Positions 5,837 through 56,689 of a stretch of DNA of 64,000 nt are shown one piece after another. Below the pieces are notes generated by a model. It had not been told where the DNA came from. It ran no database searches and worked only from the letters and a program-made list of their open reading frames with translations. Within the stretch, counting starts at the first letter, position 1. The number at the start of each line of letters is the position of its first letter. This stretch comes from a virus: the IMG/VR virus record IMGVR_UViG_3300004369_000643, positions 38,595 through 102,594 of that record; one strand, 5' to 3'. Made by a program: the position numbers and the translations under genes.

Positions 5837-7153
5837 CTAAATGATAATTTCTATTTTACGTCGCAACCCCATTCCCAGCCCTGCACAAATGTTAAAAGCG
5901 TGGGTTGCTGCGTCAACTTGGTCATCGTGTACTCGGGCTTCGGGAAAGGATGATAGTTCGTCAAGGAAGTCTGTGTTCCAGTCAGCCCTAACCATTCTTA
6001 CGTTTCCATTTGCTACTGCCGCCGCAAATGGTTTTGCTCGTGTCACTTTGTCACCTGTGGCTCTCTGACCTTTGAAGTCGTATCCGGGTAAAACGTAACG
6101 AGCATATTGATCGATTAGGTTTTTACCTGCTGATCCCGGCTCCTGCTCCATCTGTATTGGGATTTCAGGGCCATCTTCAATTGCTGTGTTACGAACAAAC
6201 TTTTCTACACGATCACCTTTTGCTCTAACCCTACGAACATCTATAATGTAAAATACACCATTGTCAAAAGCAGCCAAGCACCCTACTGTCCAGTCTGGAT
6301 CAGGGTTGCTGGATGTTGGCTCTGTTCCCGCCAAGTCCCAGAAGCGTACAATCTGAGTGTCTTTACTAAATGATGGAATTTCGGTAAATTCAATTACTTC
6401 CAAGTTGTTTCTATCGAACATTGATCCAAGCGTGGTCGCCCACCAGTCACCAAACTCCAGTCGGTTTCTTTCAATGGGGTCAAGTTCTTGAAGTACTGCA
6501 CGGTATGATTCAGGGTCAATGCCGGGGTTATCAGTAAGCATTGATGGAATGAATATGCGTCCGTTCTTTTCACCCTCCACGAGAAATCGTTGCCGCACCC
6601 AGTTAGGTGCTGGGTTGGTTGCTGCTCTCATTCGTAGCGGTACCTCTGCAAGAGGCCCACTGGCTGGTCGCCTTAAACGTGAGAACATATAGCGATAGTC
6701 AGATTCTCTAATTTCTGTAACCTCATCCATTCCGATGAATTGAAACTCTGAACCTTTGTACCGTAGATAGTCGTTGACGTTATTTAGGTAACCGAATGTT
6801 ATTCTAGCGCCAGATGGGAACGTTGCAGTGTATTGGTTGGCGTTCCAATGAACATCGTCGTATTGCATAATCCAGTCTTTGAAACGATCCATTAGGGCAC
6901 CGGGAAGCGCAAGGTCGGCATATGTACGACGGAAAAGGATGGCACTGTAACCGGGAACATCTATATACTGTAGTGCCGCCATAATTAATGCTGATGATTT
7001 ACCACCGCCTGCAGCACCTCCAAAGAGTACTTCCTGACCCATTGATTTAAGGAATACCTTCTGAGTTATTGATGGCTCTTCAACCCAGTAGTCTGAACGC
7101 TTCGGCTCTAGATACTTCCTAATTTTCTCCCAATCCTGAGTTTGCATCGACAT
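5837..7153 (-). CDS. terL: Terminase large subunit
   Basis: A 438-residue DNA-packaging motor. GGAAGGGKSS (residues 45-54) is the Walker A motif, FIGMDEVTEI the Walker B with catalytic Glu, and the C-terminal half has the RNase-H-like nuclease acids (FWDLAGTEP, MEQEPGSAGKNL, HDDQVDAATHA). ATG 7153 is preferred because AGGAGA lies 9 nt upstream; a GTG at 7180 in the same frame is an alternative that would suit a leaderless transcript. It lies on the minus strand, opposite to the portal and the rest of the head genes, which is uncommon. No small terminase subunit was recognised nearby. Confidence 0.95.
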   Translation of the reverse strand: MSMQTQDWEKIRKYLEPKRSDYWVEEPSITQKVFLKSMGQEVLFGGAAGGGKSSALIMAALQYIDVPGYSAILFRRTYADLALPGALMDRFKDWIMQYDDVHWNANQYTATFPSGARITFGYLNNVNDYLRYKGSEFQFIGMDEVTEIRESDYRYMFSRLRRPASGPLAEVPLRMRAATNPAPNWVRQRFLVEGEKNGRIFIPSMLTDNPGIDPESYRAVLQELDPIERNRLEFGDWWATTLGSMFDRNNLEVIEFTEIPSFSKDTQIVRFWDLAGTEPTSSNPDPDWTVGCLAAFDNGVFYIIDVRRVRAKGDRVEKFVRNTAIEDGPEIPIQMEQEPGSAGKNLIDQYARYVLPGYDFKGQRATGDKVTRAKPFAAAVANGNVRMVRADWNTDFLDELSSFPEARVHDDQVDAATHAFNICAGLGMGLRRKIEIII

Positions 7154-7159
7154 ATCTGC

Positions 7160-7188
7160 TTGTCTCCTAGACAATTTCACGGTAAAGT
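7160..7188 (+). promoter_or_regulatory. Leaderless-type promoter for the head operon
   Basis: TTGTCT (7160-7165), 17 bp, TAAAGT (7183-7188), 6 nt, ATG at 7195. It overlaps the TerL ribosome binding site and the minus-strand -10 element at 7186-7191. Confidence 0.6.
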
Positions 7189-7194: not shown

Positions 7195-7353
7195 ATGAAG
7201 AAATTTCTGTCCCGTTCTTTCGCTGCTCACGCTTGTATGGGCGCAGGCATCGTTTTTATCGGCCTTGGTATTAGTATACTAAGTTTGGGGTGGGGTTTGG
7301 CAAGTGCTGGTCTTGCTTGTGGAATGTACGGGTATTTATTAGGGGCTGAATAA
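7195..7353 (+). CDS. Small membrane protein
   Basis: A 52-residue protein. After a short basic start (MKKFLSRSF) it is almost wholly hydrophobic and Gly-rich (GAGIVFIGLGISILSLGWG, then ASAGLACGMYGYLLG), giving two closely spaced membrane segments. I do not recognise the family. It is preceded by a leaderless-type promoter, and its stop overlaps the portal start (TAATG at 7351-7355), so it is the first gene of the head operon. It is too far from the endolysin to be called a holin. Confidence 0.6.
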   Translation: MKKFLSRSFAAHACMGAGIVFIGLGISILSLGWGLASAGLACGMYGYLLGAE

Positions 7354-8939
7354 TGGCATGGAACTCTAGTTCAAATAAATCACTTCAATCCGGTATTGAA
7401 GAAAAGCGTGCGCAGGTTTCTGTGGGCGCTCCGGTTGCGTATAGCCCAACTATTCAGGGAAACAATCGTGGTTACCATGATGGTTGGGATATTGTTAAGA
7501 CCTATAAAGAGGCCGTTGCTAAGGTAACATGGGTATATCGCTCCATTGATGTTATTGCTTCCAATCAAGCAAGCCTGCCCATGATTCTCCGCAGGGATAA
7601 CAACCCTTTTGGTGAAATTGTAACTGAAAATCCTATTCTAAAAATTTTCAATAACACTGCTAATATTGGTGAGAATGCTTGGGCATTCAGGTATCGGCTT
7701 AGTTCGCAGTTACTGATGAGCACTAGAGGTGTATTTGTTGAGATAGTGCGCTCTAGGGATGGTACACCGATTGCAATGCATTTGTTACCGCCTCAGAATA
7801 CATCACCAATTCCCGATGTTAAAAACTTTGTTAAGGGCTTTGAAGTCCAAATTACGGCCATGGAAAAGCGAGTCATCAAGCCTAGTGATGTAATTTGGGT
7901 GCGCCGCCCGCATCCCCTTGATCCGTACTTATCCATGACCCCTATGGAGGCGGCTGGTATTGCCATTGAGCAAGAGACTTTGGCTAAGTTGTACAATAGA
8001 AACTTTTTGATTAACGACGGTAGGCCGGGGGGACTACTAGTCTTGCGAAGTGAAATTTCTGAAGAAGACAAAGATGAACTGCGATCAAGATTTAGAGGCA
8101 ATATTGGTAGAGCAGGCGCTGTTGGTGTTATTTCATCAGATGATGGTGCTGATTTTGTAGATACTGCTGCTAGCCCTCGTGATGCTTCGTATCAGCAAAT
8201 GAGAACAATTACTAAGGAAGAAATTTTAGCATCGTTCGGTGTCCCAGAGTCTATTATTGGTAACTCAGCCAACAGAACATTCTCTAATGCTATGGAAGAG
8301 GGTAAGGTTTTCTGGATGGAAACTATGACTCCACATTTGAATCTTATTGCCCGTTCATTTGATGCTATTGATGAATCTTACTTTGTTGACTTTGATACGT
8401 CAAACGTTCCTATTTTGATTTTGTCGAAGCAGGAACGTGAGAAGCATTATTTGTCAGAATTCCAGCAAGGTTTGATTAGCACAAATGAGTATAGAGAATC
8501 CTCTGCTCGTAAGAAAGTTGAGTCTGAGTTGGCTGATTCACTCTTGGCAAATCCAAATCTTACACCTTTGGCTAATACTGAAAAGCCTATGCAGCCTGAA
8601 GGCCAAGAGCAAGGTATGGGTGGTGCTCCCGGTATGGGTGGAATGGATGACATGGCCGGTGGTATGGGGGGTATGGACGGCGGCACTCCTCCGGCTCCTC
8701 GTGATGCGGGCTTTGTTGAAAGTGGTGTACCTCTCCAGCAACAAGCCACCTCAGCATTACAGCAACAAGTCACTGAGTTTAGTCCAGAAGAAGGTGCATT
8801 TGTTCCACTTGGCAATGTTCAGGGGACACAGAGAATTGAAGCACCTGCTAGCGCAGTTCCTAGTGAATTAGATGTGGAGGGTGAGAAGAGCCTCCCTTTA
8901 GAACAAAGACTTCTATTATTGGAGAACCTCCTCTCGTAG
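7353..8939 (+). CDS. Portal protein (HK97-type)
   Basis: A 528-residue portal that forms the dodecameric ring at the capsid vertex. Family features include TWVYRSIDVIASNQASLPM near residue 53, the LLPPQNTSPIPD region, MTPMEAAGIAIEQE, FGVPESIIGNSANRTFSNA and KVFWMETMTPHLN. The last 120 residues are low in complexity (Gly/Met-rich GMGGAPGMGGMDDMAGG, Gln-rich LQQQATSALQQQ). Near the end, the zero frame contains the slippery heptamer CCCTTTA (8894-8900), and the -1 frame continues into a MuF-like protein that has no start codon of its own before an internal TTG. A minor portal-MuF fusion of about 787 residues is therefore likely. Confidence 0.95.
   Translation: MAWNSSSNKSLQSGIEEKRAQVSVGAPVAYSPTIQGNNRGYHDGWDIVKTYKEAVAKVTWVYRSIDVIASNQASLPMILRRDNNPFGEIVTENPILKIFNNTANIGENAWAFRYRLSSQLLMSTRGVFVEIVRSRDGTPIAMHLLPPQNTSPIPDVKNFVKGFEVQITAMEKRVIKPSDVIWVRRPHPLDPYLSMTPMEAAGIAIEQETLAKLYNRNFLINDGRPGGLLVLRSEISEEDKDELRSRFRGNIGRAGAVGVISSDDGADFVDTAASPRDASYQQMRTITKEEILASFGVPESIIGNSANRTFSNAMEEGKVFWMETMTPHLNLIARSFDAIDESYFVDFDTSNVPILILSKQEREKHYLSEFQQGLISTNEYRESSARKKVESELADSLLANPNLTPLANTEKPMQPEGQEQGMGGAPGMGGMDDMAGGMGGMDGGTPPAPRDAGFVESGVPLQQQATSALQQQVTEFSPEEGAFVPLGNVQGTQRIEAPASAVPSELDVEGEKSLPLEQRLLLLENLLS
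8894..8900 (+). promoter_or_regulatory. Candidate -1 ribosomal frameshift site, CCCTTTA
   Basis: C CCT TTA in the portal frame fits X XXY YYZ exactly: both tRNAs can re-pair after a -1 slip (CCC, TTT). The -1 frame opens at the TGA just upstream (about 8882-8884) and is open through to 9715. Two small stems lie downstream (GGAG AAC CTCC from 8921, and CTCG TAGA CGAG from 8932), but they are farther away than the usual 5-9 nt. Confidence 0.55.
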
Positions 8940-9715
8940 ACGAGTCCGAGTGGAGAACTAAAACACTATACACTGTCAATTCTTTAGAAGAACAATTAAA
9001 CACCGCATTAGACAAAGTTTTTGATGAGCAAGAGCGTGTTGTTCTAGAAGAGTTGAATAGTGACGCCGTTAAAGCCGCTATTGCTAGCGGTTCGGTGCCC
9101 TTAATTATGTCCGCAATTCCCACGACTTTGCTGACTCCCACAACTGTTGGATTAGTTGCTGCTATGCTTGCTTCATATAACAAAGCAGTCACAGATAATG
9201 TTGAAGAGGGATATGGTGCTCCTGTTAGTCAGCAGACGGCAGATGCGGCGGCTTCGGAGCATTTAGCATCAGTAAATAATTTTAATTCAACAACCCAGCA
9301 GGAGGTTGCGTCTGCTTTGGTTGCTGCGTCGCAGTTGTCTGATGAAACTGATGGCGATATTGATATCGCTTTAAAAATTGCTTTGGCTTACTCGCTGATT
9401 AAGGCAGTTTTCAATAAACTCAGAACAAAGCGTAGAAAGTTGATTGTAGATGCTGCCGTACTTGGTACGTATAACCAAGGATTGTATGATTCTGCAACTG
9501 CCGAAGAGCAAAGATCAGGTAGAATTGTTCAGAAGCAGTGGATTTCTTTAATGGATGAGAGAGTTAGGTCTACTCATAGACAGTTACATGGGGATAAAGT
9601 TGCTGTCGGTACGCCTTTTATTGTTGATGGCGTGTCCATTAGATTCCCTAAAGACCCTTTGGCTCCTCCCGGTTTGACTATTAACTGCCGTTGCGTTTTA
9701 CGCTTCAGCAGGTAG
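8900..9715 (+). CDS. MuF-like head morphogenesis domain, frameshift extension of portal
   Basis: The -1 frame after the slip reads RTKTSIIGEPPLVDESEW and continues to 9715 (271 residues). The C-terminal part, DERVRSTHRQLHGDKVAVG then PKDPLAPPGLTINCRC, is the signature of Phage_Mu_F/SPP1 gp7-like minor head proteins. No ATG, GTG or TTG occurs in this frame between the -1 stop at about 8882 and the TTG at 9053, and that TTG has no ribosome binding site, while the residues before it look like real protein. The simplest reading is expression by frameshifting from the portal; initiation at TTG 9053 (220 residues) is the alternative. MuF proteins sit inside the head and are delivered or help assembly. 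Confidence 0.7.
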   Translation, partial: RTKTSIIGEPPLVDESEWRTKTLYTVNSLEEQLNTALDKVFDEQERVVLEELNSDAVKAAIASGSVPLIMSAIPTTLLTPTTVGLVAAMLASYNKAVTDNVEEGYGAPVSQQTADAAASEHLASVNNFNSTTQQEVASALVAASQLSDETDGDIDIALKIALAYSLIKAVFNKLRTKRRKLIVDAAVLGTYNQGLYDSATAEEQRSGRIVQKQWISLMDERVRSTHRQLHGDKVAVGTPFIVDGVSIRFPKDPLAPPGLTINCRCVLRFSR

Positions 9716-9806: not shown

Positions 9807-11372
9807 ATGACTGTTGCAGAACTAAATGACACCGAGCAAGATACCAGATTTAAGGCTATTTCAGGTCAGATTGGTATTGACAAGGCTCAGGGGATCGTAG
9901 AAGCGTTTGTTTCTGGTATTGGCAATAAAGATTCTGTCGGAGATATCGTTGTTGCTGGTGCCTTCAATGGTTCGCTCAAGCGTCGCAAACCACGAGTTGT
10001 TTGGGGGCACGACTGGAATCAACCCATTGGTAAAGTTATAGAGATTTATGAAGTCCCAAAGACTGATCCGAGATTGCCTGATAAGATGAAGCAGGCTGGT
10101 GTTGGCGGTTTGTTTGCAAAGGTTCAGTTCAATCTCAATACTGAGCGTGGACGTGAAGCATTTGCTAACGTAGCGTTTTACGGTAATGAGCAAGAGTGGT
10201 CAATCGGTTATAAGACCATTACTGCAGATTTTGATGCAGTTAAGCAGGCTAACGTTCTCAGAGAAGTAGAGTTGTATGAGATTTCTCCTGTCCTGCACGG
10301 AGCAAACCAGTTAACTGCAACTATCTCAGTAAAGGATGATGAAAAGGGCAAGGAGTCCAAAGGTTGGCAATCAGGTGACGACGACAAAGACGGGCCTGCC
10401 AGCAATATGGATGCGATGTCAGAGCGGCTGGGGCGTATGCTATCTCAGGCGCTAGGTAAGCCCGTTCAGATTATTCAAGCAGACGGAAATAATGTTGTAT
10501 TTCAAACAGGCGAAGACATGACATGGAGTGCTACCATTTCAGTAGAAAATGGGCAAGTTCAAGTCGGTCGGCCTACACGTGTAAAGCCCACTACAAGTTA
10601 TACCCCTGTTGGGGAGGAAGCGCCACCTTCAATGATGATTAAAGATACTGATGAAAAAAATGCCGAAGAGCCTGCTGGCGTTAGAAACGCTGACAACGAG
10701 CAAGGCTCGTGGGCAACTCCAGATATTGCTTTGGCTTGGTCAAAGACTCTGGGATGCTCAGGTTATCATTCCCACGGTGGAGGCTTTATGCCTTGTGAAA
10801 CCCACGAAGAATACTTAGAGGCTATTAAGAAGTTTGATGGTAATGCTAACATCAACTCCCACAATAATTACCTTGCTGGTGTTGAGGTTGAAGAAGCGAA
10901 AGACGCTGGATGTGGTTGCAGTACTTCCGAAAAGGGTCATGGCTACATGCGTAATGAAAAGCCTGAATATTTGAAAGATCCAATGGCGCTGCTGCTTATG
11001 GCCTATAACGAGATGCTTAAACTACGGGGTGCGGGCGAGTTGCGTGAGGCAACTCTCTCATTAATTGGTGCGGTTGAGAATTTTTTGACCGAAGCACCTA
11101 TGTCTCTTCCAAGTGAGCAGGGCGAGAAAGTAACCTCAGGTTTTGTTGTTCATGTTAAGTGTTCAGAACGTGAGGCTTTAAGTGTTAGTGGTGCTATGTC
11201 GTCACTTCCAGTATTCTCATTCAAGTCGGAAGATGGTGTTGATGTTCACTTCACTACCGAACTTGCGGAAGAAGAACTAATGGAAAAAGTTGCTATTTCG
11301 CTTGCCGGATTAGACTTTGATCCTGAGGTAACAGTAACCAGACCGATTGACACCGATGAAGGTGTTCAGTAA
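9807..11372 (+). CDS. Prohead protease (HK97 family) with C-terminal extension
   Basis: A 521-residue protein. Residues 1-180 hold the protease: VSGIGNKDSVGDIVVAGAF, VVWGHDWNQPIGKV with the catalytic His, EWSIGY with the catalytic Ser, and LYEISPVLHGANQLT. It would cleave scaffold and capsid delta domains during maturation. The remaining 340 residues are an extension that includes a C317-x3-H321-x8-C330 motif (LGCSGYH ... FMPC) also found in the two neighbouring head proteins, and a CGCSTSEKGHGYM segment. The extension may act as scaffold. A GAGGAGAG ribosome binding site precedes the ATG. Confidence 0.9.
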   Translation: MTVAELNDTEQDTRFKAISGQIGIDKAQGIVEAFVSGIGNKDSVGDIVVAGAFNGSLKRRKPRVVWGHDWNQPIGKVIEIYEVPKTDPRLPDKMKQAGVGGLFAKVQFNLNTERGREAFANVAFYGNEQEWSIGYKTITADFDAVKQANVLREVELYEISPVLHGANQLTATISVKDDEKGKESKGWQSGDDDKDGPASNMDAMSERLGRMLSQALGKPVQIIQADGNNVVFQTGEDMTWSATISVENGQVQVGRPTRVKPTTSYTPVGEEAPPSMMIKDTDEKNAEEPAGVRNADNEQGSWATPDIALAWSKTLGCSGYHSHGGGFMPCETHEEYLEAIKKFDGNANINSHNNYLAGVEVEEAKDAGCGCSTSEKGHGYMRNEKPEYLKDPMALLLMAYNEMLKLRGAGELREATLSLIGAVENFLTEAPMSLPSEQGEKVTSGFVVHVKCSEREALSVSGAMSSLPVFSFKSEDGVDVHFTTELAEEELMEKVAISLAGLDFDPEVTVTRPIDTDEGVQ

Positions 11373-13223: not shown

Positions 13224-13403
13224 ATGCAGCCTAGCCAAGTGATACAGAGAATTGCTGCCGCTAACCAAACTTTAGCAGAATTAGGAGCATATGCTGTTCT
13301 TGGTGACCACGTTAGAGATAACGAGGTAGAATATCTGTATAGAGACGGATTAGAGCATGTCTTTAGTCCCTTAGAAACCACTGGGGATTCGGATGACGAT
13401 TGA
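13224..13403 (+). CDS. Small hypothetical head-region protein
   Basis: A 59-residue acidic protein (starts MQPSQVIQRIAAANQTLAEL, ends in an Asp-rich tail). A TAGGAGG ribosome binding site lies 6 nt before the ATG. It overlaps the start of the giant gene by 11 bp, which suggests translational coupling. I do not recognise a family. It sits where some phages encode small head-assembly helpers. Confidence 0.65.
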   Translation: MQPSQVIQRIAAANQTLAELGAYAVLGDHVRDNEVEYLYRDGLEHVFSPLETTGDSDDD

Positions 13404-16400
13404 GTTTAAAGCGCCCGAAATAGGTCCAAATGCCGATGCGCTGACCAGCCTTACACGAGGCCGAGGGCCACGTAGAGGCAACTTAGAAGACCTACTGAAG
13501 TATTGGCGTCCTATCATGAAGAAGCCGGGTGGATTCCGTAGGTGTGTTGTCATTTTAATGGATAAGCCCCAGTTTGGTGGAAAGCCTCAGCGCATTTGTG
13601 CTTGGCTTCACCACGAACTTACAGGTAAGTGGCCAAATGAAGGTAAGGGCAAGAAGGGTAGCCGCAGTCGTAAGAAGCGCCGTGGGCGTTCAGTTACTCG
13701 TAGGGTAAGGTCTGCGGGTAAGAAGTCTTTGATGGGTATGTCACCTTTGACTGAGGTTACTTCTTTGCGTATGGCTATTCGTGAGTCTCGTGAGTTTGGC
13801 GGAATTTTGGTTCAACCAATTGCGGGTAGGCAGAATGCTGTAGAAATGAAAGCGGCTATGTTCCTGCGCCACTCAGAATCTTTACCTTTGTTTGCTGGAA
13901 ATGACGTTAAGCGGGTTGGTACTGTTGGTTCTTCTAGTGGTTTGGGGCAGGCCGCTCAGGCTGCGGGTAGTATTATTCTTCCGGGTGATTTGTCTGACAT
14001 TCGTAGTCCTATCCGTTCGCAAATTTATGAAACTTTAACTCCGGGCGGTGGTGGAAGCATTCGCCGTCCTAGTGCTCGTCGCTTATTGAGAGGTACGGGT
14101 CGTGGTGCTCGTAATAAGTTTAGGTGTCCTCCGGGTTTTGAAAAGGGCGGAACTTTTACTAATTCTGAGTTCTCTACTTGTGGTGCGCAGATTTTAGGTA
14201 TTGCTAGTTCAGGCCCCGGTTCGCCCACAGCAGAGGCAAACAATAGGCTTTCACGTTTAGCGAACACTGCTGGCTTGGTTAATGAGATTGGTGATCTCCG
14301 TAAGAATACTAATGCTGTAGATATTATCCGTGCTGCTCAAATTCCTGCTGCCCCCAAGAAGGGTAGCCCAACTCGTGCCCAGACTTCAATTGACTTAGTT
14401 CTTTCTCGTTACACTGAAGAAGATTTCCCAACTAAAGTTGTTAGGCGAGACGGTGTTATTTTGGAGCCTGTTGTTTCGGTTGAAGCGCTTGGACGCTTAA
14501 ATGAGTTTGACGACATGGCAGATGGTAGCCTTATTGAAAAGTATGAAGCAGGTCAGATTGGTGCGGCAACTGTTCCTGCATTTAGTGCTGGATTGCGCAA
14601 TGTGTTTGTTTCCGTTCCAGATGCTGGTGCTGTTAAGATTAGTCGTGTAGGCGGAGAAATTTCAGATCAGGAACGGGCAGGCTTGTTACGTTCGTTTTCT
14701 GCGGGTATATCTAGAAGCGCTGATTTACCTGATCCTTCCGCTGCTGTCCGTTCGTGGGCTGACGGCTCTGACGGTAGATTTACTGTTGAGTTTGGTGCGA
14801 TTACAGATAACGGTTTTAGTGTTCAAGATGATAAGAATGAGTTGATCATGGTATCCACTGCTGGTGGCAAATCTCAAACTGTTCCTCGCTGGGTTTATGA
14901 AACTTTCCTGTCTCGTTCTGCACCTCGCCGTGCAAAGGATGCCCCTATTTTTGAAATTGTTTCTGACGAAAGTCCTCTAGAAAAAAGTGTTTCACCATTT
15001 TATTTCTCGAAAAAGTCAGTAACTCCTACTAGTGATTTAAGTGATGTTTTAGATGCGCAGGATTATTACTTATCAATTAATAGTAAAGTTAAAGCATTTT
15101 CTTATTTGACTGAAGTTGAAGTTAAGGCTCCTAGGCGTGGAGGTTTGGGTCGTCGTCTTGGTCGTGGTGGTCGGGCTGTTGGTGGGCGTAGTCGTGCAGT
15201 ATTCGACGGCGCTTCAGGTAGGTATCGTTGTCCTCCGGGCACCCGTTATGGTGGTCGATTCTCAGATCAGTTTGGACGTAATTGCGGCTACTCACTTCCA
15301 CGAGGTGTAGTTAATAATCTTGTTGATTTCGGTATGCGGGTTGAGGACGCAATGGAACGTCGGCGTACCCGCCGAGGCGTAGACACTACTCCGGGTGACG
15401 GTCGCACAAATCTTAAGCCAGAGACTGTTACGCTTTTTGATGATGCCATTGGTAGAGTAGAAGCCGCTACAGGAGATTTAAGTAGAGTCTTTGAGAAGAC
15501 AGAGGGCGCTCAAGGTGGTACATTAGGCCGCACTATTGGTGAGGCTCGGCGTGATGTTGATTTAACTCCTGAAGAGCGTGAGTTACTTGAAGGTGAGGCA
15601 TTGGCCGATGCGTTAGAGAATCTACGTGATGTTTTAAATAACGAGGATTTAAACAACGCCAATATCGATGAAATCCGTAAGGCGTATAAGGCTGTTGAGA
15701 AGGCTGCTAACATCGAAGCGGGTCGTCTGACTGATAATCCTCCACGCACACCAGATCAACGTACATTGTCTCAAAAGATTTTAGACTTCTTGAAAGAAGT
15801 TCTCTTCCGTCTGTTGGGTATATGGAATGAAGATGATGAGCGTCGGCGCATTGGCGGCGGTGTAGACACTCGTCCCGGTGATGGTGATGCTGATGTGCCG
15901 GGAAGTCGTCCTCGTGTTCCGGGTGGAGGACAGAGCCGTCCTCGTATTCCTGTAGATAATGATCAAGGTCGTCCTCGGATTCCTCTAGATAATGATCAAC
16001 GGCGTCCTCGTATTCCTTTAAGTTTGGATGATGCTGTTCGCAGTGATTCAGATGATCGGGATTCTTTAGAGGCGATTTTGAATGAGTTTCGTGATCGTGC
16101 TGAAGAATACGAGGTTGCTGGCGGTGGAATGACTGCTGATTTTGTTGAGTCATTAGACGACAAAGATTTGGATAGATATACTCAAGCATTTGAAGATGCT
16201 GCAAGACTGTTAGCGGATGATCCAGCATTTGATGATATTAACGACGCTTTAAATCGTCTGCGTGGTGAGCGAGATCGTCGGGACAGGCAACGCAGTCTAG
16301 TTAATGCCGATCTTCGTGAACGCTTTGATTTAGATAGCGAAGATGGTCTTGCTGACGCTATTGAACACTTTGAAGACCTTGCCGATGAGTATGAGGCAGC

Positions 16401-19400
16401 AGATATCATGACTGCTGACTTCTTTGAACGTTTGAACGACGATGAAATTGCGTTCTTCCAAGACGTGTTTGATAGGGCTATAGATAACATTGGGGACAAT
16501 GAAGACGGCGCATTTGATGCGATTGCTCGACGTTTAGAAGATGAACGCTCACGCCGTGATCAATTGAATAGAGAAGATTTCAGTAAGGAAGATTACAATT
16601 TAGTTCTTAAAGAAATGAATGCACATATGAAGCGGTTTGAGGTTGCTGGCGGTGGAATGACCGCTGACTTCTTTGATGCCGTTTCAGATGATGACCTGAT
16701 TAAGTATCGTCGTGCTGTTCGTGATGGTTTAGATGCTGATGCTTTTGATGGTGAAAATCGTGAAGCATTACAGGAACTCTTAGGGCGTATGGACGGAGAG
16801 TTTGATCGTCGCTTTAAAGGCCCCGGCAAGCGTCCTCGTATTGAGTCAGAAGAAAACAAAATTGAAGATAAGTTTACTTTAGATGGTGATGCCGATCTTG
16901 CTGCTGCTATTAAAGAGTGGGAAAGGCGTGCCGCCGACTTTGAAGTTACTGGTGGTGGAATGACTCAAGATTTAGTTGAGTCACTAAGTAATGAAGAACT
17001 TATTTTCTTTGAAGATGCTCACATCCGCTTAAAGGAGCGTATGGGAGAATTTGATTCTTTCGATCCCGCTGATTTAGATGAGATAATTAATCGCCTTCGT
17101 GGTGAGCGTGAGCGTCGTGGATTTAATTCATGGGGGCAAGGATCAGAGCCTGATCAGCGTTCGCTGATAAATGTCAATAACCGCTTCCCACGAAACGGTT
17201 TACCTAATCGTGCTTATTGGCGGGATGACAATTATGACGGTGATGATGCTGCTGAGTTAGATCGACGGTTTGGTCGTTACTATGATGGTAACAATATGCT
17301 GAATGATAGGGGTCGCTCTGTTAATCGCCGTTTGGGTCGTGATAGTGATTCTAATGCACCTGACGTTGCGCCTGATGGCGATAGTCCTGACGATCCAGAT
17401 AATCTTAGCAGGTTCTCTGATGATGAACTTAGAGCATTACTTGCTGATGATAATGCTGAATTACCTTTCAATATCCAACGCATTTCTGATGATGACTTAA
17501 GGCGTATAGAGCAAATTGGTGACGAGTTTGGCTCATCAGAAGAGATTACAGCAACAAACGGAATATTTAGGCGTCCATTAAATAATGTCCGAATTGTTGC
17601 GGAGGAAGTAAATAGGGGGCTGAATGGTGAGCGAGATCCGAACCGTTTAGGTGCAGGTACACCTGATGCGTCTCGGCCTGACATTCCTTCACCGCTTTCC
17701 GATAATAACTTTAATTCTGGCCGTAGGCTACGTCAGCCTATAAGAGCAATTGATGATGCCGATGATAATCAGTTAAATAACTTGCGTGGCGCTATGCAGC
17801 GTGAGTTTGCAAATTCGTATAACGAGTGGGTTGCTGAGTTAGGGATTGCAGGTGTCGCTTCGGAAGATGTATCGTTTACTAGGATTAAAGAATATATTGA
17901 CGGTATTCAAGATGTTGATAGGCGTCGTCTATTAGAGATGAGATTGGCTGACTTACGAGAGTTGAATGAGGGTGTACGTAAGTTAAATCAGGGTGATGAT
18001 ACTCGTGAAGTTCTTAGAGATCATTTAGGCAGGATATCGGTTGTTCGTAGAGCGAGCGTTATGAATTTGATTGACAACGACGATGCTAACGTTCCTAATG
18101 TTCCTGATGAACCATTTGTTGAATCTTTGATTCCTAGTGATAATCCTCTTGAGGGTAGAAGACGGGTACGGGATGCTGGATTAAAGTATGATCAAGAAGG
18201 TAATTCTTTCTTAGCGAACATGGATTTTAATGATCTTGGTCAACTATTTGATGATATAAAAGCGGCAGAGATCGATGGCGAGGTTTTAGCGCCTAGGTTC
18301 CGTGATACTGTTAGAGCGGAATATAACTTTAGGCTGAGAACAAATGACGGGGATTACGATGCTTTAGTTGCCCGTTTGGAAGGAATGTCTGACGAAAGCC
18401 TAGAAGAAATGGCTACTCGTGACATAGACTTTAGAGTTATTAGACTACGTGGGGGTAATGACAATGGTAGTCCTCCGAGCCGTGCAGCCTTGGCTCAAGC
18501 AGATAGATTAATTGAGGCCAAAGAGCGACGTGAGAGAAATCTGCGTGAAAGAATTCCTACAGGCACTATAGATGTTCCTGAAGATGGCAGCATCCGTGAT
18601 CGGGTTGGTGCAGTTTTGGGTGAGGGTGCTGTTGATATGGATGACAGAGCAGCAGAAGCCTTCTTACGCAGCCTGTCTTTTGAAGAATTTACACGTTTGT
18701 TGGAACGTAAAATGAATATGATGCCAGCATTTGATGATATAGACGACGAAGATTATATCGTTCTTTCTCAGATTGGGCAGCGTATAACTCGTGAAAAAGA
18801 TAGGCGAGAGCACGTTCGAAGGTTCCAGTTAGACGTACCAATAAGCCAGCGTTCAAACGAGGCTTTAGATAAGTATGAAACCTATTTTAATGAGTTGCTT
18901 GGTAGGCTTCCTGACGGTAACGCAAATTTTGAGCGGGTGCGAGACGAGATTCGTCGTGAGAAGCGAGCGAGAATTTTTGCACAGTCACCTAGCGTTATTG
19001 ATTTAGAAGATGAGGGTAGTTCATTAGTAGATGCGTTCGTACCTGATGCGCCGGGTTCTGGAGATATCGAAGACCTTGAGAAGTTCTTTGCTAATCGTGC
19101 GCTTCACGACGTTATGTCTACTCGTGATATGTTGAGAGTAAGAGATAGGATTCAGAATAGCCCTAATCTTACTCAAGATGAGTCTACGGCCTTGTTGCGT
19201 ACTTGGGATGATCGTATGCGTAACAGAGGTTTGAATTTTGAAAGAAATCTGCCTATAGATCAGCGGTCGGCTGATGCGCTACAACGGCATATAGACTTTT
19301 TGAATACACGAATGGAAATCCGTGATGCAGATGGTAACAGGGATATTGCGGTGGTGCAGGCATATGAAAATGCTATTTCTCTTTTAAGTAAACAGCGTGA

Positions 19401-21783
19401 TATTCGTATCGCTGCTGATGAGGTAGCGGCTGCTGTCGATGCTAATCCTAGTTTGTCTGATAGGTGGCGTAATGTCGCTAAATGGAATTTCTTGAAGGCT
19501 CGTCGTATGCGTCAGCAGAAACGTGAACAGAAAATTCGTGAGATTGCAGAAAGACGTTATGCTAATCGGCGTTCACCTTGGAATATAGGCGGATTAGATG
19601 GCTTAAGCAACATGTCTGATTCACAGGTTAGGGCACGGATTAGAGATACATATTTGGTTGGAAGTTCGACTGATACTGGTACGGTAACAATTAATGGTGA
19701 AGTTTTTACAAAGCGTATAACTCCAACTAACTCAAGGATCGAAGTTAATCGTTCGGCTAATGGTAGAATTTACAAAATAGATTTCAGCGCACATATGAAG
19801 TTTGAGTTAGTAGATTCTAACGGGAATGTAGTCAAGAGTGAGACTCACCGATCAGCAGAGGGTTGGACTAGAGGTAGAATAGAGAGAAGCATTACTTATG
19901 ATAGTAACGGTGTTGGCACTGTTGAACACAAGTTTTTAGGTCTTGATAGGGTCATGTCTTATAATGGGCAGGACGTTCCGTTTAAAGGCGGGGGATATAC
20001 TGACGAGTTGTTTAATAACAACTTGCTTTTCTACAGAAACATGGGTATAGAAAAGGTTAGCGTTTCTGCTGCTAGCGATGGTAACATTGTTTGGCCTCGT
20101 ATTGGATTTAGAGAATACGACGGGAACAAAATCAAACGACTTAACACTAAAATGCTTGTAGTTTTAGAAGACTATAGGGGTTATAAGAGGGCTAAAGAAA
20201 CAGGAGTTCCGCCAACAGCAGAGCAAATTGCGGCTAAAGCCCTCGTTCAAGATGACGTTAGGATGGCAAGATTAGATGCCATGTTGGAGCCACATAGGCT
20301 CAACCCGCAAGACGTTGATGCTCTGCCGGGGTACCACGATTTCTTATTGGCTCTTGACGGTGAAAATCGTAGAAACTCTGTAGCCTTCCAGTTACTTAGA
20401 GGAAGTAACCGAAATTTGCGCCTTGCTAAAGGCGGAGAAGGGATCTCTGGATTAGATGAGGGTATGCTTGATGAGTTGTTTGCAGATGATCCCGATTTGG
20501 AGAATAGAGAAATTGCTAATCCGTTTGGGGGTATGAACTTTAGTAGTGGTGTTTGGGATATTAGCGATATTTTGGGTGATGCTGGTGGTGATCCTCGTCG
20601 GGTTAACAGTAATTTAATTGATCCATATGATGGCCCTGTTGATTCTGCTGTAAGCGCCCCTCGTCAAACGGTTGGCCCACTTTCACAGAAGATGAATCCA
20701 GAAGTTGGTAGAGACGTTCAACGCCCAGTTAATGGTGTTCCTGTAGGAACAAACAATATTAGCAATTCAAATGATGCTGTAGATTATTTGAATGGTGGTG
20801 GAGATGTTTCTGGGGTTCCTGACGAATTTGTAAATCAGGCGATTATAGGTTTGTCTGATTTACTTTCTGACGCTAATCGTTTAGGCGATATAAGGTTTAG
20901 AAACATTAAACCTAGCGATGCTAACGGCATTAATGACGGTTTAGATTTTAATGGTGCACAAATTTTAGAAGACACAGTAACTGGTCAAGTTTTTGTAATC
21001 AAGTACAATCAGGGTCGGGGTTACGGTCATGATGAGGCTGCAAACGAACTTGTTGGTCGTGCCATCATGATTCGTATGGGCTTCGCTCAAGGCCAAGTCA
21101 GACTTGATGGGCCGGGCGATCCGAATGAAAGCCGACCTGCACGTGGTTTGGTTGGTGAAGCGTTGCATAACTATCTGCCTGAAGGAGTTAACCGTTCAGA
21201 TATAAGTATGGGTAATAGTGGGGCGGACATATATCTTAATGATGCTGCCGAGTTGGACGATATGACACACCTTATGCTGGGAGATGCTTTACTTTTCAAT
21301 ACCGATAGACATTCCAAAAACTGGCTGCAGTACACTGATCCGAATACTGGTAAAATTAGAATTGTACCAATTGACATGGGTCTAGGTTTACGAGGCAGAT
21401 CCGCAAATGGTGATGATTTAAGGGCTGAAGGGCTAGACGCTCCTAACCAAATTGCCAAGTGGGCATTGTCAGGCAAGGGCGGCAGTCATAGTCTTAATGG
21501 TGTTCAGAAAGCACTTAAGATGCTTGCTACAGATGCGGATAAAAGGCGAGAAATTGCAGCATCGTTTGATCGTGCAATAGCAAGAATGCGTGCTGCTCAC
21601 CAGCAAGAAGACATTACTGGTGTATTGGAGACCATTGGGCGTGAACATGGGAATTTGGATAGCGATGGGTGGAAGCGAGCGCAGGCCATGTTTTTAGAAA
21701 GATATGGATGGTTAATGGAATCATCTGTTAATGGGGATCAACTTGTCAGATTGATTATAGACGCAAGGCCACCGAGATCATAA
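13393..21783 (+). CDS. Giant virion-type protein (2796 aa) with C-terminal kinase-like domain
   Basis: N terminus: YWRPIMKKPGGFRRC and ICAWLHHELTGKWPNEG, followed by a very basic stretch (about residues 78-115). Two Cys motifs, FRCPPGFEKGG (about 240) and YRCPPGTRYGG (about 613), each close with a later CG. RPRIP repeats lie at about 836-876 and four repeats of about 95 residues (EVAGGGMTADF type) at about 886-1242; long charged helical regions follow. About 2095-2340 holds a beta-rich domain with GNIVWPRIGFREYD. The C terminus (about 2500-2796) has a kinase-like layout: VFVIK (K2537), GHDEAANELVGRA, FNTDRHSKNW (D2638, N2643) and VPIDMGLGL (D2661). This matches PI3/PI4-kinase-like and HipA-like active sites. 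Location among head genes suggests an internal, injected protein; function unproven. Confidence 0.8.
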   Translation: MTIEFKAPEIGPNADALTSLTRGRGPRRGNLEDLLKYWRPIMKKPGGFRRCVVILMDKPQFGGKPQRICAWLHHELTGKWPNEGKGKKGSRSRKKRRGRSVTRRVRSAGKKSLMGMSPLTEVTSLRMAIRESREFGGILVQPIAGRQNAVEMKAAMFLRHSESLPLFAGNDVKRVGTVGSSSGLGQAAQAAGSIILPGDLSDIRSPIRSQIYETLTPGGGGSIRRPSARRLLRGTGRGARNKFRCPPGFEKGGTFTNSEFSTCGAQILGIASSGPGSPTAEANNRLSRLANTAGLVNEIGDLRKNTNAVDIIRAAQIPAAPKKGSPTRAQTSIDLVLSRYTEEDFPTKVVRRDGVILEPVVSVEALGRLNEFDDMADGSLIEKYEAGQIGAATVPAFSAGLRNVFVSVPDAGAVKISRVGGEISDQERAGLLRSFSAGISRSADLPDPSAAVRSWADGSDGRFTVEFGAITDNGFSVQDDKNELIMVSTAGGKSQTVPRWVYETFLSRSAPRRAKDAPIFEIVSDESPLEKSVSPFYFSKKSVTPTSDLSDVLDAQDYYLSINSKVKAFSYLTEVEVKAPRRGGLGRRLGRGGRAVGGRSRAVFDGASGRYRCPPGTRYGGRFSDQFGRNCGYSLPRGVVNNLVDFGMRVEDAMERRRTRRGVDTTPGDGRTNLKPETVTLFDDAIGRVEAATGDLSRVFEKTEGAQGGTLGRTIGEARRDVDLTPEERELLEGEALADALENLRDVLNNEDLNNANIDEIRKAYKAVEKAANIEAGRLTDNPPRTPDQRTLSQKILDFLKEVLFRLLGIWNEDDERRRIGGGVDTRPGDGDADVPGSRPRVPGGGQSRPRIPVDNDQGRPRIPLDNDQRRPRIPLSLDDAVRSDSDDRDSLEAILNEFRDRAEEYEVAGGGMTADFVESLDDKDLDRYTQAFEDAARLLADDPAFDDINDALNRLRGERDRRDRQRSLVNADLRERFDLDSEDGLADAIEHFEDLADEYEAADIMTADFFERLNDDEIAFFQDVFDRAIDNIGDNEDGAFDAIARRLEDERSRRDQLNREDFSKEDYNLVLKEMNAHMKRFEVAGGGMTADFFDAVSDDDLIKYRRAVRDGLDADAFDGENREALQELLGRMDGEFDRRFKGPGKRPRIESEENKIEDKFTLDGDADLAAAIKEWERRAADFEVTGGGMTQDLVESLSNEELIFFEDAHIRLKERMGEFDSFDPADLDEIINRLRGERERRGFNSWGQGSEPDQRSLINVNNRFPRNGLPNRAYWRDDNYDGDDAAELDRRFGRYYDGNNMLNDRGRSVNRRLGRDSDSNAPDVAPDGDSPDDPDNLSRFSDDELRALLADDNAELPFNIQRISDDDLRRIEQIGDEFGSSEEITATNGIFRRPLNNVRIVAEEVNRGLNGERDPNRLGAGTPDASRPDIPSPLSDNNFNSGRRLRQPIRAIDDADDNQLNNLRGAMQREFANSYNEWVAELGIAGVASEDVSFTRIKEYIDGIQDVDRRRLLEMRLADLRELNEGVRKLNQGDDTREVLRDHLGRISVVRRASVMNLIDNDDANVPNVPDEPFVESLIPSDNPLEGRRRVRDAGLKYDQEGNSFLANMDFNDLGQLFDDIKAAEIDGEVLAPRFRDTVRAEYNFRLRTNDGDYDALVARLEGMSDESLEEMATRDIDFRVIRLRGGNDNGSPPSRAALAQADRLIEAKERRERNLRERIPTGTIDVPEDGSIRDRVGAVLGEGAVDMDDRAAEAFLRSLSFEEFTRLLERKMNMMPAFDDIDDEDYIVLSQIGQRITREKDRREHVRRFQLDVPISQRSNEALDKYETYFNELLGRLPDGNANFERVRDEIRREKRARIFAQSPSVIDLEDEGSSLVDAFVPDAPGSGDIEDLEKFFANRALHDVMSTRDMLRVRDRIQNSPNLTQDESTALLRTWDDRMRNRGLNFERNLPIDQRSADALQRHIDFLNTRMEIRDADGNRDIAVVQAYENAISLLSKQRDIRIAADEVAAAVDANPSLSDRWRNVAKWNFLKARRMRQQKREQKIREIAERRYANRRSPWNIGGLDGLSNMSDSQVRARIRDTYLVGSSTDTGTVTINGEVFTKRITPTNSRIEVNRSANGRIYKIDFSAHMKFELVDSNGNVVKSETHRSAEGWTRGRIERSITYDSNGVGTVEHKFLGLDRVMSYNGQDVPFKGGGYTDELFNNNLLFYRNMGIEKVSVSAASDGNIVWPRIGFREYDGNKIKRLNTKMLVVLEDYRGYKRAKETGVPPTAEQIAAKALVQDDVRMARLDAMLEPHRLNPQDVDALPGYHDFLLALDGENRRNSVAFQLLRGSNRNLRLAKGGEGISGLDEGMLDELFADDPDLENREIANPFGGMNFSSGVWDISDILGDAGGDPRRVNSNLIDPYDGPVDSAVSAPRQTVGPLSQKMNPEVGRDVQRPVNGVPVGTNNISNSNDAVDYLNGGGDVSGVPDEFVNQAIIGLSDLLSDANRLGDIRFRNIKPSDANGINDGLDFNGAQILEDTVTGQVFVIKYNQGRGYGHDEAANELVGRAIMIRMGFAQGQVRLDGPGDPNESRPARGLVGEALHNYLPEGVNRSDISMGNSGADIYLNDAAELDDMTHLMLGDALLFNTDRHSKNWLQYTDPNTGKIRIVPIDMGLGLRGRSANGDDLRAEGLDAPNQIAKWALSGKGGSHSLNGVQKALKMLATDADKRREIAASFDRAIARMRAAHQQEDITGVLETIGREHGNLDSDGWKRAQAMFLERYGWLMESSVNGDQLVRLIIDARPPRS
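16050..17120 (+). repeat. Four tandem protein repeats of about 95 residues in the giant gene
   Basis: Repeat copies are marked by EVAGGGMTADFVESL, DIMTADFFERL, EVAGGGMTADFFDAV and EVTGGGMTQDLVESL, each followed by an acidic helix and an Arg/Glu-rich end (RGERDRRDR, EDERSRRDQ, MDGEFDRRF, RGERERRGF). The DNA has diverged between copies, so the repeats are old and kept by selection. Confidence 0.85.
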
Positions 21784-36653: not shown

Positions 36654-36733
36654 ACTTGACAGAGCAGACGCTACGTCTAGCCCTCAGGGCAAGTCAATAC
36701 GGTATTGAACGACAAAGAAATTGGAGGCTAAAA

Positions 36734-38242
36734 ATGCCGGGAGTTAATGTCACCACTGCAGTGCGCACTGGTCCTGTGGGTACTACAGATGTCGTGGCAG
36801 GTCAAGTTTTTATGGTTGGTGAGGCTGAGCGGGGGCCTACAGACGTACCCACGCTTCTTCGGTCTTTCAACGACTACACGACCTACTACGGAAACTACGA
36901 ATCAGGATCACTTTACAGCCATGTGAAAACTTTCTTCGATGAGGGCGGTTCACGTTGTTATGTTCAGCGTGTTGTGGCCAGCGATGCTGCTGCCGCTACT
37001 CTCACTTTGAACGACGCTTCTGGCTCAGCCACAATGGTGGCAACTGCAAAGAACGTTGGCGATTGGGCTGATAATCTTGATATTGAGATTGCTGCTGCTG
37101 ACGTTTCTGGCTTCAAGGTTAAGGTTTATCTGGATGACGCTTTGCTGCTTTCGACTCGTGACCTCACATCTGTTTCGGATGCGATTAACGTGGTGAACAG
37201 TTCAGCGGTTTCACATTTAATTGCATTGTCTGATGATGTAACTGCAGGTACCAACCCTGCTACTACAGCGGCTACTGCTTTGAGTGGTGGTACTGACAGT
37301 GCAGGCGCTACCCCTGTTGATGCGGACGATATTGTTGCCGCTCTTGCTGCAGCAACTACCAATCTTACACCTAATCTGGGTACAGGCGCTGTTTGCGCTC
37401 CGGGGTGGTCAACCACTGGTGTTTGGGAAGCACTTCGTGACCATGCAAAAGAGTACAACCGTATTGCGATTCTGTCGTTTGCTTCTGGCACTTCAGCATC
37501 GTCGGCTCGCTCTTCAGCAGCAGGCTACTATGCCGATGCGAAGGCAAGTTACATGGGCTTCTACTGGCCGCACATCAAGGTTCCTGCACCGAATGCTGCA
37601 GAGTTGGCAACAAATCAGGCATCAGTTGCTGGTTCAACGGTAACCATTTCGCCTGAGTCGTTTGTTGCTGGTGCTCGTGCTAGAGCCATTCAGCAGAGTG
37701 GAGGCCCTTGGCGTGCAGGTGCTGGACAGATTTCTCAGGCTAAGACTGTTTCCGCTTTGGCGCAGGATGTTACTGCTGCTACCGGTGAGACAATGGACGC
37801 TGCCCGAGTGAACGTGCTCCGTAAGATTGGTAACGGAATCCGTGTTTACGGTGCCCGCTCAGTATCGAACGATGAGGCTAACTGGCGCTATATCACAATG
37901 CGTGACACGATGAACTACATTGTGGCTGGCGTTGAGGCCCGCATGGAAGAGTACGTGTTTGAGACGGTTGACGCACGAGGAAACTTGTTCGGACGAATCC
38001 GTGGCTCAATTAAGGCTTTCTTGGAGCCTATTCGTGCCGCTGGCGGTCTCTACGAAGCGTTTGATGACGATGGTGTCATGATTGATCCCGGCTTCAATGT
38101 CGTGGTTGATAGCACTATCAATCCAGCGACGCAACTCGCCAACGGTCTGGTTAAGGCTCAAGTTGGTGTCCGGGTCTCCGGGGTTGCGGATTTAATTGAT
38201 ATAGTAATCACTAAGAGCAATCTTTCGGCTCCCGTAATCTAA
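36734..38242 (+). CDS. Tail sheath protein
   Basis: A 502-residue contractile sheath subunit. The N terminus (GVNVTTAVRTGPVG, GQVFMVGEAERGPTDVPTLL) and the C-terminal block (YGARSVSNDEANWRYITMRD, YIVAGVEARMEEYVFETVD, FGRIRGSIKAFLEPIRAAGG, ATQLANGLVKAQVGVRVS) are characteristic. It polymerises round the tail tube and contracts on infection, which defines this phage as a myovirus. ATG 36734 is chosen for the TTGGAGGC ribosome binding site. The tube gene follows 10 bp later. Confidence 0.92.
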   Translation: MPGVNVTTAVRTGPVGTTDVVAGQVFMVGEAERGPTDVPTLLRSFNDYTTYYGNYESGSLYSHVKTFFDEGGSRCYVQRVVASDAAAATLTLNDASGSATMVATAKNVGDWADNLDIEIAAADVSGFKVKVYLDDALLLSTRDLTSVSDAINVVNSSAVSHLIALSDDVTAGTNPATTAATALSGGTDSAGATPVDADDIVAALAAATTNLTPNLGTGAVCAPGWSTTGVWEALRDHAKEYNRIAILSFASGTSASSARSSAAGYYADAKASYMGFYWPHIKVPAPNAAELATNQASVAGSTVTISPESFVAGARARAIQQSGGPWRAGAGQISQAKTVSALAQDVTAATGETMDAARVNVLRKIGNGIRVYGARSVSNDEANWRYITMRDTMNYIVAGVEARMEEYVFETVDARGNLFGRIRGSIKAFLEPIRAAGGLYEAFDDDGVMIDPGFNVVVDSTINPATQLANGLVKAQVGVRVSGVADLIDIVITKSNLSAPVI

Positions 38243-38252
38243 GGAGATATAA

Positions 38253-38702
38253 ATGGCTAAGGCAACCCAGAGGCAAATTGTTGCAGAGATTTCAGCGGTT
38301 AGAGATGTTCCCGGCCATATTCCGGGGCCTTCTTTCTCCACGTACTTTGCTACGGTTAGCGGCGGCGAAATCAGTGCCGCAGTAGAAAAGGTGTATGATG
38401 GCGGGGCTTCGTTCCCTGAGGTTCTTTGTGCTCCTTCAGAAATTGGTGACATCACGCTGAGCAGGTTCTATGATCCTGATGACGATGCTACTAGATTGAA
38501 TAACCTTCGTCAGTTGGTTGGTTCAACGTACTACGATGTCAAGATTTACACTCTTAACTGCGATCTTGCTGAGCCGGGTTCTGAGCGAATTTACCCAAGA
38601 TGCTTACTTGTAGGGCTTACAGAGCCTGATGGTGATGCTTCTTCAGGTGCTCCGGCTTCGTTCTCGCTCACTTTCTCAGTGAGCCGAGTCAGCGCTATCT
38701 GA
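38253..38702 (+). CDS. Tail tube protein
   Basis: A 149-residue protein immediately after the sheath. It has the beta-sandwich composition of myovirus tube proteins: YFATVSGGEISAAVEKVYDG, GDITLSRFYDPDDDATRLNNL and a final FSLTFSVSRVSAI. It stacks in hexamers to form the inner tube through which DNA passes. An AAGGAGAT ribosome binding site is present. A strong terminator follows. Confidence 0.85.
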   Translation: MAKATQRQIVAEISAVRDVPGHIPGPSFSTYFATVSGGEISAAVEKVYDGGASFPEVLCAPSEIGDITLSRFYDPDDDATRLNNLRQLVGSTYYDVKIYTLNCDLAEPGSERIYPRCLLVGLTEPDGDASSGAPASFSLTFSVSRVSAI

Positions 38703-38806: not shown

Positions 38807-39322
38807 ATGAGTACAGAAGAAAATGACATCATTGAGGTTGCAGGTTCCGCACCTGCCGCCGCACAAAAGAAGGCTAGTAAGGTTACCCTGCTGGATCAGT
38901 TGAAGTCGGAAATTTCTAAGGAAGTTACACGTCCTGAAATTGAGATTCCTATTCCTGAGCGTAGGGGCGTTACTGTTCGTTACTCCCCTAACATTACTAA
39001 TGAGCAGTTGAAGGCTTGGCGGCGCAACTCTACCAACAGAAAGACTGAGGAACTTGATTCTATTAAGTTCTCTTGTTATGTTGTCGGTCAGACGGTGACT
39101 GGTATTTACTTTAACGGCGAGTTGGTTTTGGATGACGATGGTAATGCAATTACTTTCGCATCTGGCGTTGTTATGGAGATGACTGAAACTGATCGTCCTT
39201 TGCCTGACGCCATTCGGGCGTTCTTCGCTGTTGACCCTCACCTTGAGAGCACCGCTCTTAAGATTCTTGACCATGCTGGTTATGGTGATGAAGTTGACAT
39301 GGAGGACCCTACGAAGGGCTAG
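38807..39322 (+). CDS. Tail assembly chaperone, zero-frame product
   Basis: A 171-residue acidic protein in the usual place between tube and tape measure. The middle (RGVTVRYSPNITNEQLKAWR, DSIKFSCYVVGQTVTGIYFN) is beta-rich and the end is helical. It should bind the tape measure during tail assembly. The -1 frame is open across the stop (TAG 39320-39322) and continues to 39513, so a longer frameshift form is expected, as in most long-tailed phages. No ribosome binding site; a near-consensus leaderless promoter. Confidence 0.75.
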   Translation: MSTEENDIIEVAGSAPAAAQKKASKVTLLDQLKSEISKEVTRPEIEIPIPERRGVTVRYSPNITNEQLKAWRRNSTNRKTEELDSIKFSCYVVGQTVTGIYFNGELVLDDDGNAITFASGVVMEMTETDRPLPDAIRAFFAVDPHLESTALKILDHAGYGDEVDMEDPTKG

Positions 39323-39513
39323 TTGATAGTCTTTCGGAAGATGTCCGAATTAAATCAGCAGCCCGTCTAGGAGAGACGTTTCACGTTGATCCGATTCAGT
39401 TATTGGACTCTACGAACGATGAGTGGTTGATTCGTATGGCGTGTGCCCAAGCGTTGGCTAGGGATCATGCGGAACGAGAAAGACAAAGAAAAGCAGCGCA
39501 GGGTGGCTACTGA
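39316..39513 (+). CDS. Tail assembly chaperone, -1 frameshift extension
   Basis: The -1 frame reads GLVDSLSEDVRIKSAARLGE and on for 65 residues, ending at 39513. It opens after a TGA at 39295-39297 and has no ATG, GTG or TTG before the middle of the segment, so independent initiation is unlikely. No classic X XXY YYZ heptamer exists in the window; the best slip is G GGC TAG (39316-39322), where the Gly tRNA can re-pair from GGC to GGG with the stop in the A site. Frameshifted chaperones at this gene position are standard, so the fusion is well supported although the exact slip base is not. Confidence 0.65.
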   Translation, partial: GLVDSLSEDVRIKSAARLGETFHVDPIQLLDSTNDEWLIRMACAQALARDHAERERQRKAAQGGY

Positions 39514-39553: not shown

Positions 39554-39573
39554 TTCTCTATTTGGGGGCAGTT

Positions 39574-56585: not shown

Positions 56586-56669
56586 GCCCCCGTGGCGGAA
56601 TAGGCATACGCAGGAGACTTAAAATCTCTGGCCCGTAAGGGCTTGTGGGTTCAAATCCCACCGGGGGTA
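56586..56669 (+). tRNA. tRNA-Leu, anticodon UAA
   Basis: An 84-nt cloverleaf: acceptor GCCCCCG with CGGGGGT, D-arm with GGCGGAATAGGCATACGC, anticodon stem GGAGA/TCTCT with loop CTTAAAA, long variable arm typical of Leu tRNA, T-arm GTGGG TTCAAAT CCCAC and discriminator A. CCA is not encoded. It reads UUA (and UUG by wobble), codons that are frequent in this phage and rare in GC-rich hosts. Confidence 0.92.
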
Positions 56670-56689
56670 CTGTTACTGAAAGGAGTATT

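Follow-up and report, generated by a model that had tools for sequence, protein, structure and literature searches.

The portal gene of the phage described here very probably uses programmed -1 ribosomal frameshifting, by which a plain portal protein and, in the minority, a portal-MuF fusion would be produced from one gene, the fusion being carried into the portal ring. The slippery signal, its conservation, the coding character of the -1 frame and the architecture of the fusion emerge from comparative evidence on related loci, which is presented below. The analyzed stretch of DNA (the window, 64,000 nt) constitutes the right-hand 64 kb of IMG/VR virus record IMGVR_UViG_3300004369_000643, which comprises 102,594 bases in all. 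It belongs to a contractile-tailed phage, with a tail sheath gene at 36656-38242 and a tube gene at 38253-38702. Portal and capsid proteins are closest to those of actinobacterial phages and an actinobacterial host is therefore presumed; a host search for relatives among the GTDB genomes found none.

The portal ORF (7353-8939, plus strand) matches Pfam PF04860 (E=1e-48) as well as the portal families phrog_2662 and phrog_12. It ends with a TAG codon at 8937-8939 and encodes 528 aa, the 0-frame product without MuF. The next gene of the head module (9807-11372, plus strand) encodes the S78 head maturation protease (PF04586, E=1.1e-12), and the MuF sequence is placed between these two genes, in the -1 frame with respect to the portal. 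The large terminase gene (5837-7180) is located on the opposite strand to the adjoining portal and head genes, which is unusual in a packaging module. The head-module ORF at 13393-21783 (2796 aa) contains repeated acidic and charged segments and shows weak matches only, to families of unknown role.

The slippery heptamer C CCT TTA is located at 8894-8900 on the plus strand, in the phase X XXY YYZ of the portal frame and at the overlap of the 0 and -1 frames, with 12 sense codons separating it from the portal TAG. In the -1 frame, an open stretch extends from 8885 to 9712, with its stop codon at 9713-9715, and yields MuF matches to PF04233 (E=1.3e-10, above the curated cut-off) and to the head morphogenesis family phrog_2468 (4.5e-25). 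Counted from the slip, the MuF extension comprises 273 codons (8894-9715, plus strand) and the predicted trans-frame portal-MuF protein has a length of 787 aa. An earlier, sequence-only reading had described a perfect C CCT TTA in the portal frame near its stop, a -1 frame open from about 8885 to 9715 without ATG, GTG or TTG before 9053, and the continuation of this frame into a MuF-like domain; the heptamer proved exact on checking, and the two other statements were likewise confirmed. CCCTTT is common, with 24 occurrences in the window versus 30 expected, so the heptamer alone proves nothing and it is its conservation that exceeds chance.

A search of IMG/VR with the portal as query yielded 80 loci, 57 of which have MuF in the -1 frame. 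In all 57, CCCTTT[A/T/C] is found shortly 5' of the portal stop and in the same phase, so that the conservation of CCCTTTA in relatives, which had been proposed as a check, holds for CCCTTT throughout, with A, T or C as the last base. The position of the portal stop varies among the relatives, between 2 and 14 codons past the slip, and is always 3' of the heptamer. For the analysis of selection, 28 divergent representatives (MuF less than 95% identical) with 458 complete portal codon columns were used. CCCTTT is invariant in these 28, the last base being T in 23, A in four and C in one. In E. coli, C_CC.U_UU.Y is among the efficient slip heptamers and C_CC.U_UU.A slips at more than 0.1% without stimulators (PMC4066793); the three last bases found in the representatives correspond to forms that slip in E. 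coli (PMC4066793). A point against slippage in the window is the A-site codon UUA, the tRNA of which would re-pair on UUU less well than tRNA-Phe. As a side observation, the UUA codon of the slip site is read by a tRNA that the phage itself encodes, tRNA-Leu(UAA) at 56586-56670. Among the few contigs compared, L148, likewise with CCCTTTA, carries the same tRNA-Leu(UAA), and L076 (CCCTTTT) carries tRNA-Glu instead.

The heptamer is part of a near-invariant element, GAGGGT-(GA/AG/AA)G-AAG-AGY-NN-CCCTTT, which is common to the relatives with MuF in the -1 frame. This 23-nt element occurs a single time in the window (0 expected) and has exact matches in 60 viral contigs. In 257 Gb of prokaryote contigs one match was found, in a Prevotellaceae MAG without portal or MuF similarity; it is regarded as an unrelated chance match, about the number expected by our own estimate. 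Within the portal gene, the third base is invariant in just 6 of the 458 codon columns, and all six lie within the 8 codons that end with the heptamer. In the 81 columns with an invariant four-fold degenerate residue, a single codon is kept only at the Gly (GGT) and the Pro (CCT) of the element. The heptamer takes its first C from a codon that specifies any of six residues (L, A, V, D, R or H), yet the third base of this codon is always C. Synonymous variability is thus reduced at the frameshift signal, and this third-base conservation rules out a chance heptamer. Just 5' of the slip site, the -1 frame contains a stop codon (TGA at 8882-8884, plus strand). All 28 representatives have a TGA, TAG or TAA at exactly this distance, 10-12 nt 5' of the heptamer, though the portal residue at this site varies (E, R or K), and the fourth purine combination, GG, which gives no stop, is found in none of the 28. 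This conserved stop may insulate MuF from stray -1 translation.

A Shine-Dalgarno-like (SD-like) GAGGG at 8877-8881 on the plus strand is the probable upstream stimulator, as it is conserved in 28 of 28 representatives and suitably spaced. GAGG itself is invariant, and the 14 nt between it and the second base of the slippery motif fall inside the range of 6-17 nt used for stimulatory SD sequences (PMC4066793). In the window, SD-like motifs stand at the start of 16 of 29 ORFs, compared with a background of 14%. No conserved downstream stem-loop or pseudoknot was detected over the 28 representatives (mean z -0.2 to -0.4), and the frameshift region had no family match in Rfam; downstream structures of this kind are optional for bacterial -1 frameshift signals. 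Upstream, AGGG and CCCT could pair to form a stem (mean z -1.2 for -30 to +10, with no covariation available as a test), which was rejected as a stimulator because a ribosome at the slip site would melt it. Slippage of the RNA polymerase instead of the ribosome would yield the same fusion protein. It normally requires a long homopolymer run, however, which CCCTTT does not provide, and the conserved SD-like element speaks for slippage of the ribosome, so that a transcriptional origin of the -1 product appears highly improbable.

MuF might also be made as a separate protein, from TTG 9053 or from another downstream or non-canonical start, in which case the heptamer would be fortuitous. A TTG is indeed present at 9053-9055 (plus strand) as the first possible in-frame start, and one clade of relatives (L040-L042, L046-L048) begins MuF with its own ATG. 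However, the first possible MuF starts are scattered between +26 and +212 nt past the portal stop and none of them, including the TTG of the window, is conserved; no conserved start codon follows the SD-like element, while CCCTTT is invariant. Moreover, the sequence 5' of the starts bears the marks of a protein. From the portal stop to the first potential start codon, dN/dS is 0.15, versus 0.09 in the rest of MuF (pooled pairwise values from non-independent pairs, which serve as a description and not as a test), and the differences in this start-less stretch are concentrated at third positions. Judged by these substitutions, the -1 frame 5' of any start codon appears to evolve as protein under purifying selection. 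In the window, the stretch extends from 8901 to 9052 on the plus strand and covers the linker and the first MuF helix. An AlphaFold2 model of MuF (mean pLDDT 82) contains a disordered linker at residues 1-15 and a confident helix at residues 17-53. TTG 9053 corresponds to residue 54, directly beyond this helix, and according to the model a start there would truncate MuF by its first long helix. Relatives of the window MuF with solved structures were found neither by sequence nor by fold. In view of the scattered starts and of the constraint upstream of them, a separately initiated MuF is very unlikely.

Programmed frameshifting is further consistent with the architecture of homologous proteins. 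A profile scan reached the nearest outgroup (L165-L193), the portals of which are about 63-67% identical; here a single ORF of about 728-771 aa contains both portal and MuF. A single ORF likewise covers portal and MuF in the isolated phages Cantare, GMA6, DalanDe, FlyingTortilla and Gilgamesh (portals about 37-42% identical) and in mu1/6, which is more distant, in line with the earlier statement that portal-MuF fusions are known in some phages. Cantare is a Brevibacterium phage, GMA6 a Gordonia phage, and the annotation of the Streptomyces phage Gilgamesh reads 'portal and MuF-like fusion protein'. When the Cantare portal served as the query of a scan, no viral contig was retrieved. Over their entire length, the predicted trans-frame proteins (741-827 aa, with 787 aa for the window) can be aligned with the single-ORF fusions. 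The slip site falls in the linker of this alignment, with EGEKS opposite EGQLS and WEEK opposite WDTK. The window differs from the phrog_2662 fusions, which occupy one reading frame, in having MuF in the -1 frame and the portal stop in between. As the nearest outgroup has the fusion in one frame, this break could in principle be a sequencing or assembly error or the sign of a decaying gene, the true gene being an in-frame fusion. However, 57 relatives from many metagenomes share both the break and the heptamer, both frames are constrained, and the portal stop varies in position yet never precedes the heptamer. This independent conservation rules out an assembly error, and the probability left to error and decay together is negligible.

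Two clades of relatives lack the heptamer. In the clade L040-L042, L046-L048, the MuF gene with its own ATG overlaps the portal end. In the clade L052, L058-L069, L074-L075, the portal is directly followed by the protease, and a search of six records for MuF found none; this clade represents a natural deletion in which MuF is dispensable. The portal-MuF fusion is therefore not universally needed. The sequence-only reading had named relatives that start MuF in the normal way and lack the heptamer as a refutation of frameshifting. Such relatives do exist, in the form of one subclade, but they read as an alternative mode of expression and not as a refutation. In a tree of the portal core, a branch with strong support separates all three non-fused states from the single-ORF fusions. 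In the simplest history, the ancestor would have had MuF on all subunits, frameshifting would have arisen once, and two departures would have followed; the rooting of the tree is doubtful because of long branches.

A -1 frameshift to portal-MuF is the only reading that fits the third-base conservation of the slip site together with the upstream SD-like motif, the purifying selection on the -1 frame 5' of every start codon, the full-length alignment between the trans-frame protein and natural fusions encoded by one ORF, and the fact that clades with a separate MuF ATG or no MuF lack the heptamer. The comparative data thus support the frameshift at the heptamer as it had originally been suggested. 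In the proposed mechanism, most ribosomes would read CCU UUA through and stop at 8937, giving the plain portal of 528 aa. In a minority, the tRNAs in the P- and A-site would slip in tandem by one base, from C CCU UUA to CCC UUU, aided by the upstream GAGGG as it pairs with the 16S rRNA 3' end, and these ribosomes would go on in the -1 frame to complete the 787-aa portal-MuF. The portal part would then take the fusion into the dodecameric ring during procapsid assembly, and a few MuF domains would thereby be placed at the portal vertex. Slippage in the host, its efficiency and a mixed ring are what we infer from the signal, and going by the usual behaviour of such signals, MuF is probably present on just a fraction of the 12 portal subunits.

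Frameshifting could be real and nevertheless be just another route to the usual high-level fusion, without a dosing role. The closest outgroup has MuF fused to every portal subunit, and some frameshift signals slip efficiently. On the other hand, no strong downstream stimulator was found, which argues for modest efficiency, and the stop of the free portal is situated just 2-14 codons past the slip, so we consider such an undosed fusion unlikely. With moderate confidence, we favor a wider proposal consisting of three joint parts: that slip efficiency sets the number of MuF copies among the 12 subunits, giving a chemically asymmetric ring with about 1-3 arms; that the lineage has shifted from an all-subunit fusion to a dosed one; and that the conserved -1-frame stop keeps stray -1 ribosomes out of MuF.

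Among known systems, the single-ORF portal-MuF fusions (Gilgamesh, mu1/6, Cantare, GMA6; phrog_2662) are direct homologues with the same two domains, order and place of the linker. They are read in one frame and have MuF on every portal subunit, whereas a stop and a slip site separate the domains in the window. The SPP1 gp6/gp7 type, a portal gene followed by a separate MuF gene, is alike in having MuF at the portal, but gp7 is a separate polypeptide recruited non-covalently and the MuF of the window would be a covalent part of the portal subunit. Programmed frameshifting is known for phage tail chaperones and major capsid proteins (PMC5009743). In lambda gpG/gpGT, a -1 slip near the 3' end of the gene likewise extends the C-terminus of a minority of the protein, in a fixed ratio (PMC5009743); these proteins, however, act in tail assembly, are absent from the virion and are unrelated to portal-MuF. 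The window itself contains a likely tail assembly chaperone pair at 38807-39322 (171-aa ORF) and 39298-39513. The -1 frame of the 171-aa ORF, just 5' of a tape-measure-like ORF (39562-43647), is open for 71 codons, and GGAGG is found near the overlap; a perfect X_XXY_YYZ heptamer is absent. In T7/T3 10A/10B, Lactobacillus A2 and Listeria PSA, frameshifting produces a minority of an extended head structural protein (PMC5009743), which is the major capsid protein with a decoration or Ig-like extension and other signals, in contrast to the 12-subunit portal of the window. The dnaX and IS911 signals likewise have an internal SD-like motif 5' of an X XXY YYZ heptamer, but also a downstream stem-loop, of which none was found at the site in the window. 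In the PRFect study (PMC10885494), MuF-like genes are listed solely with the 'false positives' that are known to be fusions. Neither frameshifting nor the portal-MuF fusion is new by itself, and the new part is the link between them: a frameshift joining portal and MuF was not found in the open-access literature searched, in agreement with the initial view that low-ratio portal-MuF frameshifting is not a standard strategy.

The portal is the sole symmetry-breaking vertex of tailed phage heads, and MuF/gp7 proteins are present there in low copy number. Homologous phages offer four natural states, namely MuF on all subunits, frameshift-dosed MuF, MuF from a separate gene, and no MuF, so that a direct test can be made of whether MuF has to be dosed and covalently attached. 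In genomes of this kind, standard gene callers will give MuF as truncated or wrongly started. If the proposed mechanism is true, the portal would join the short list of head proteins that are diversified by recoding.
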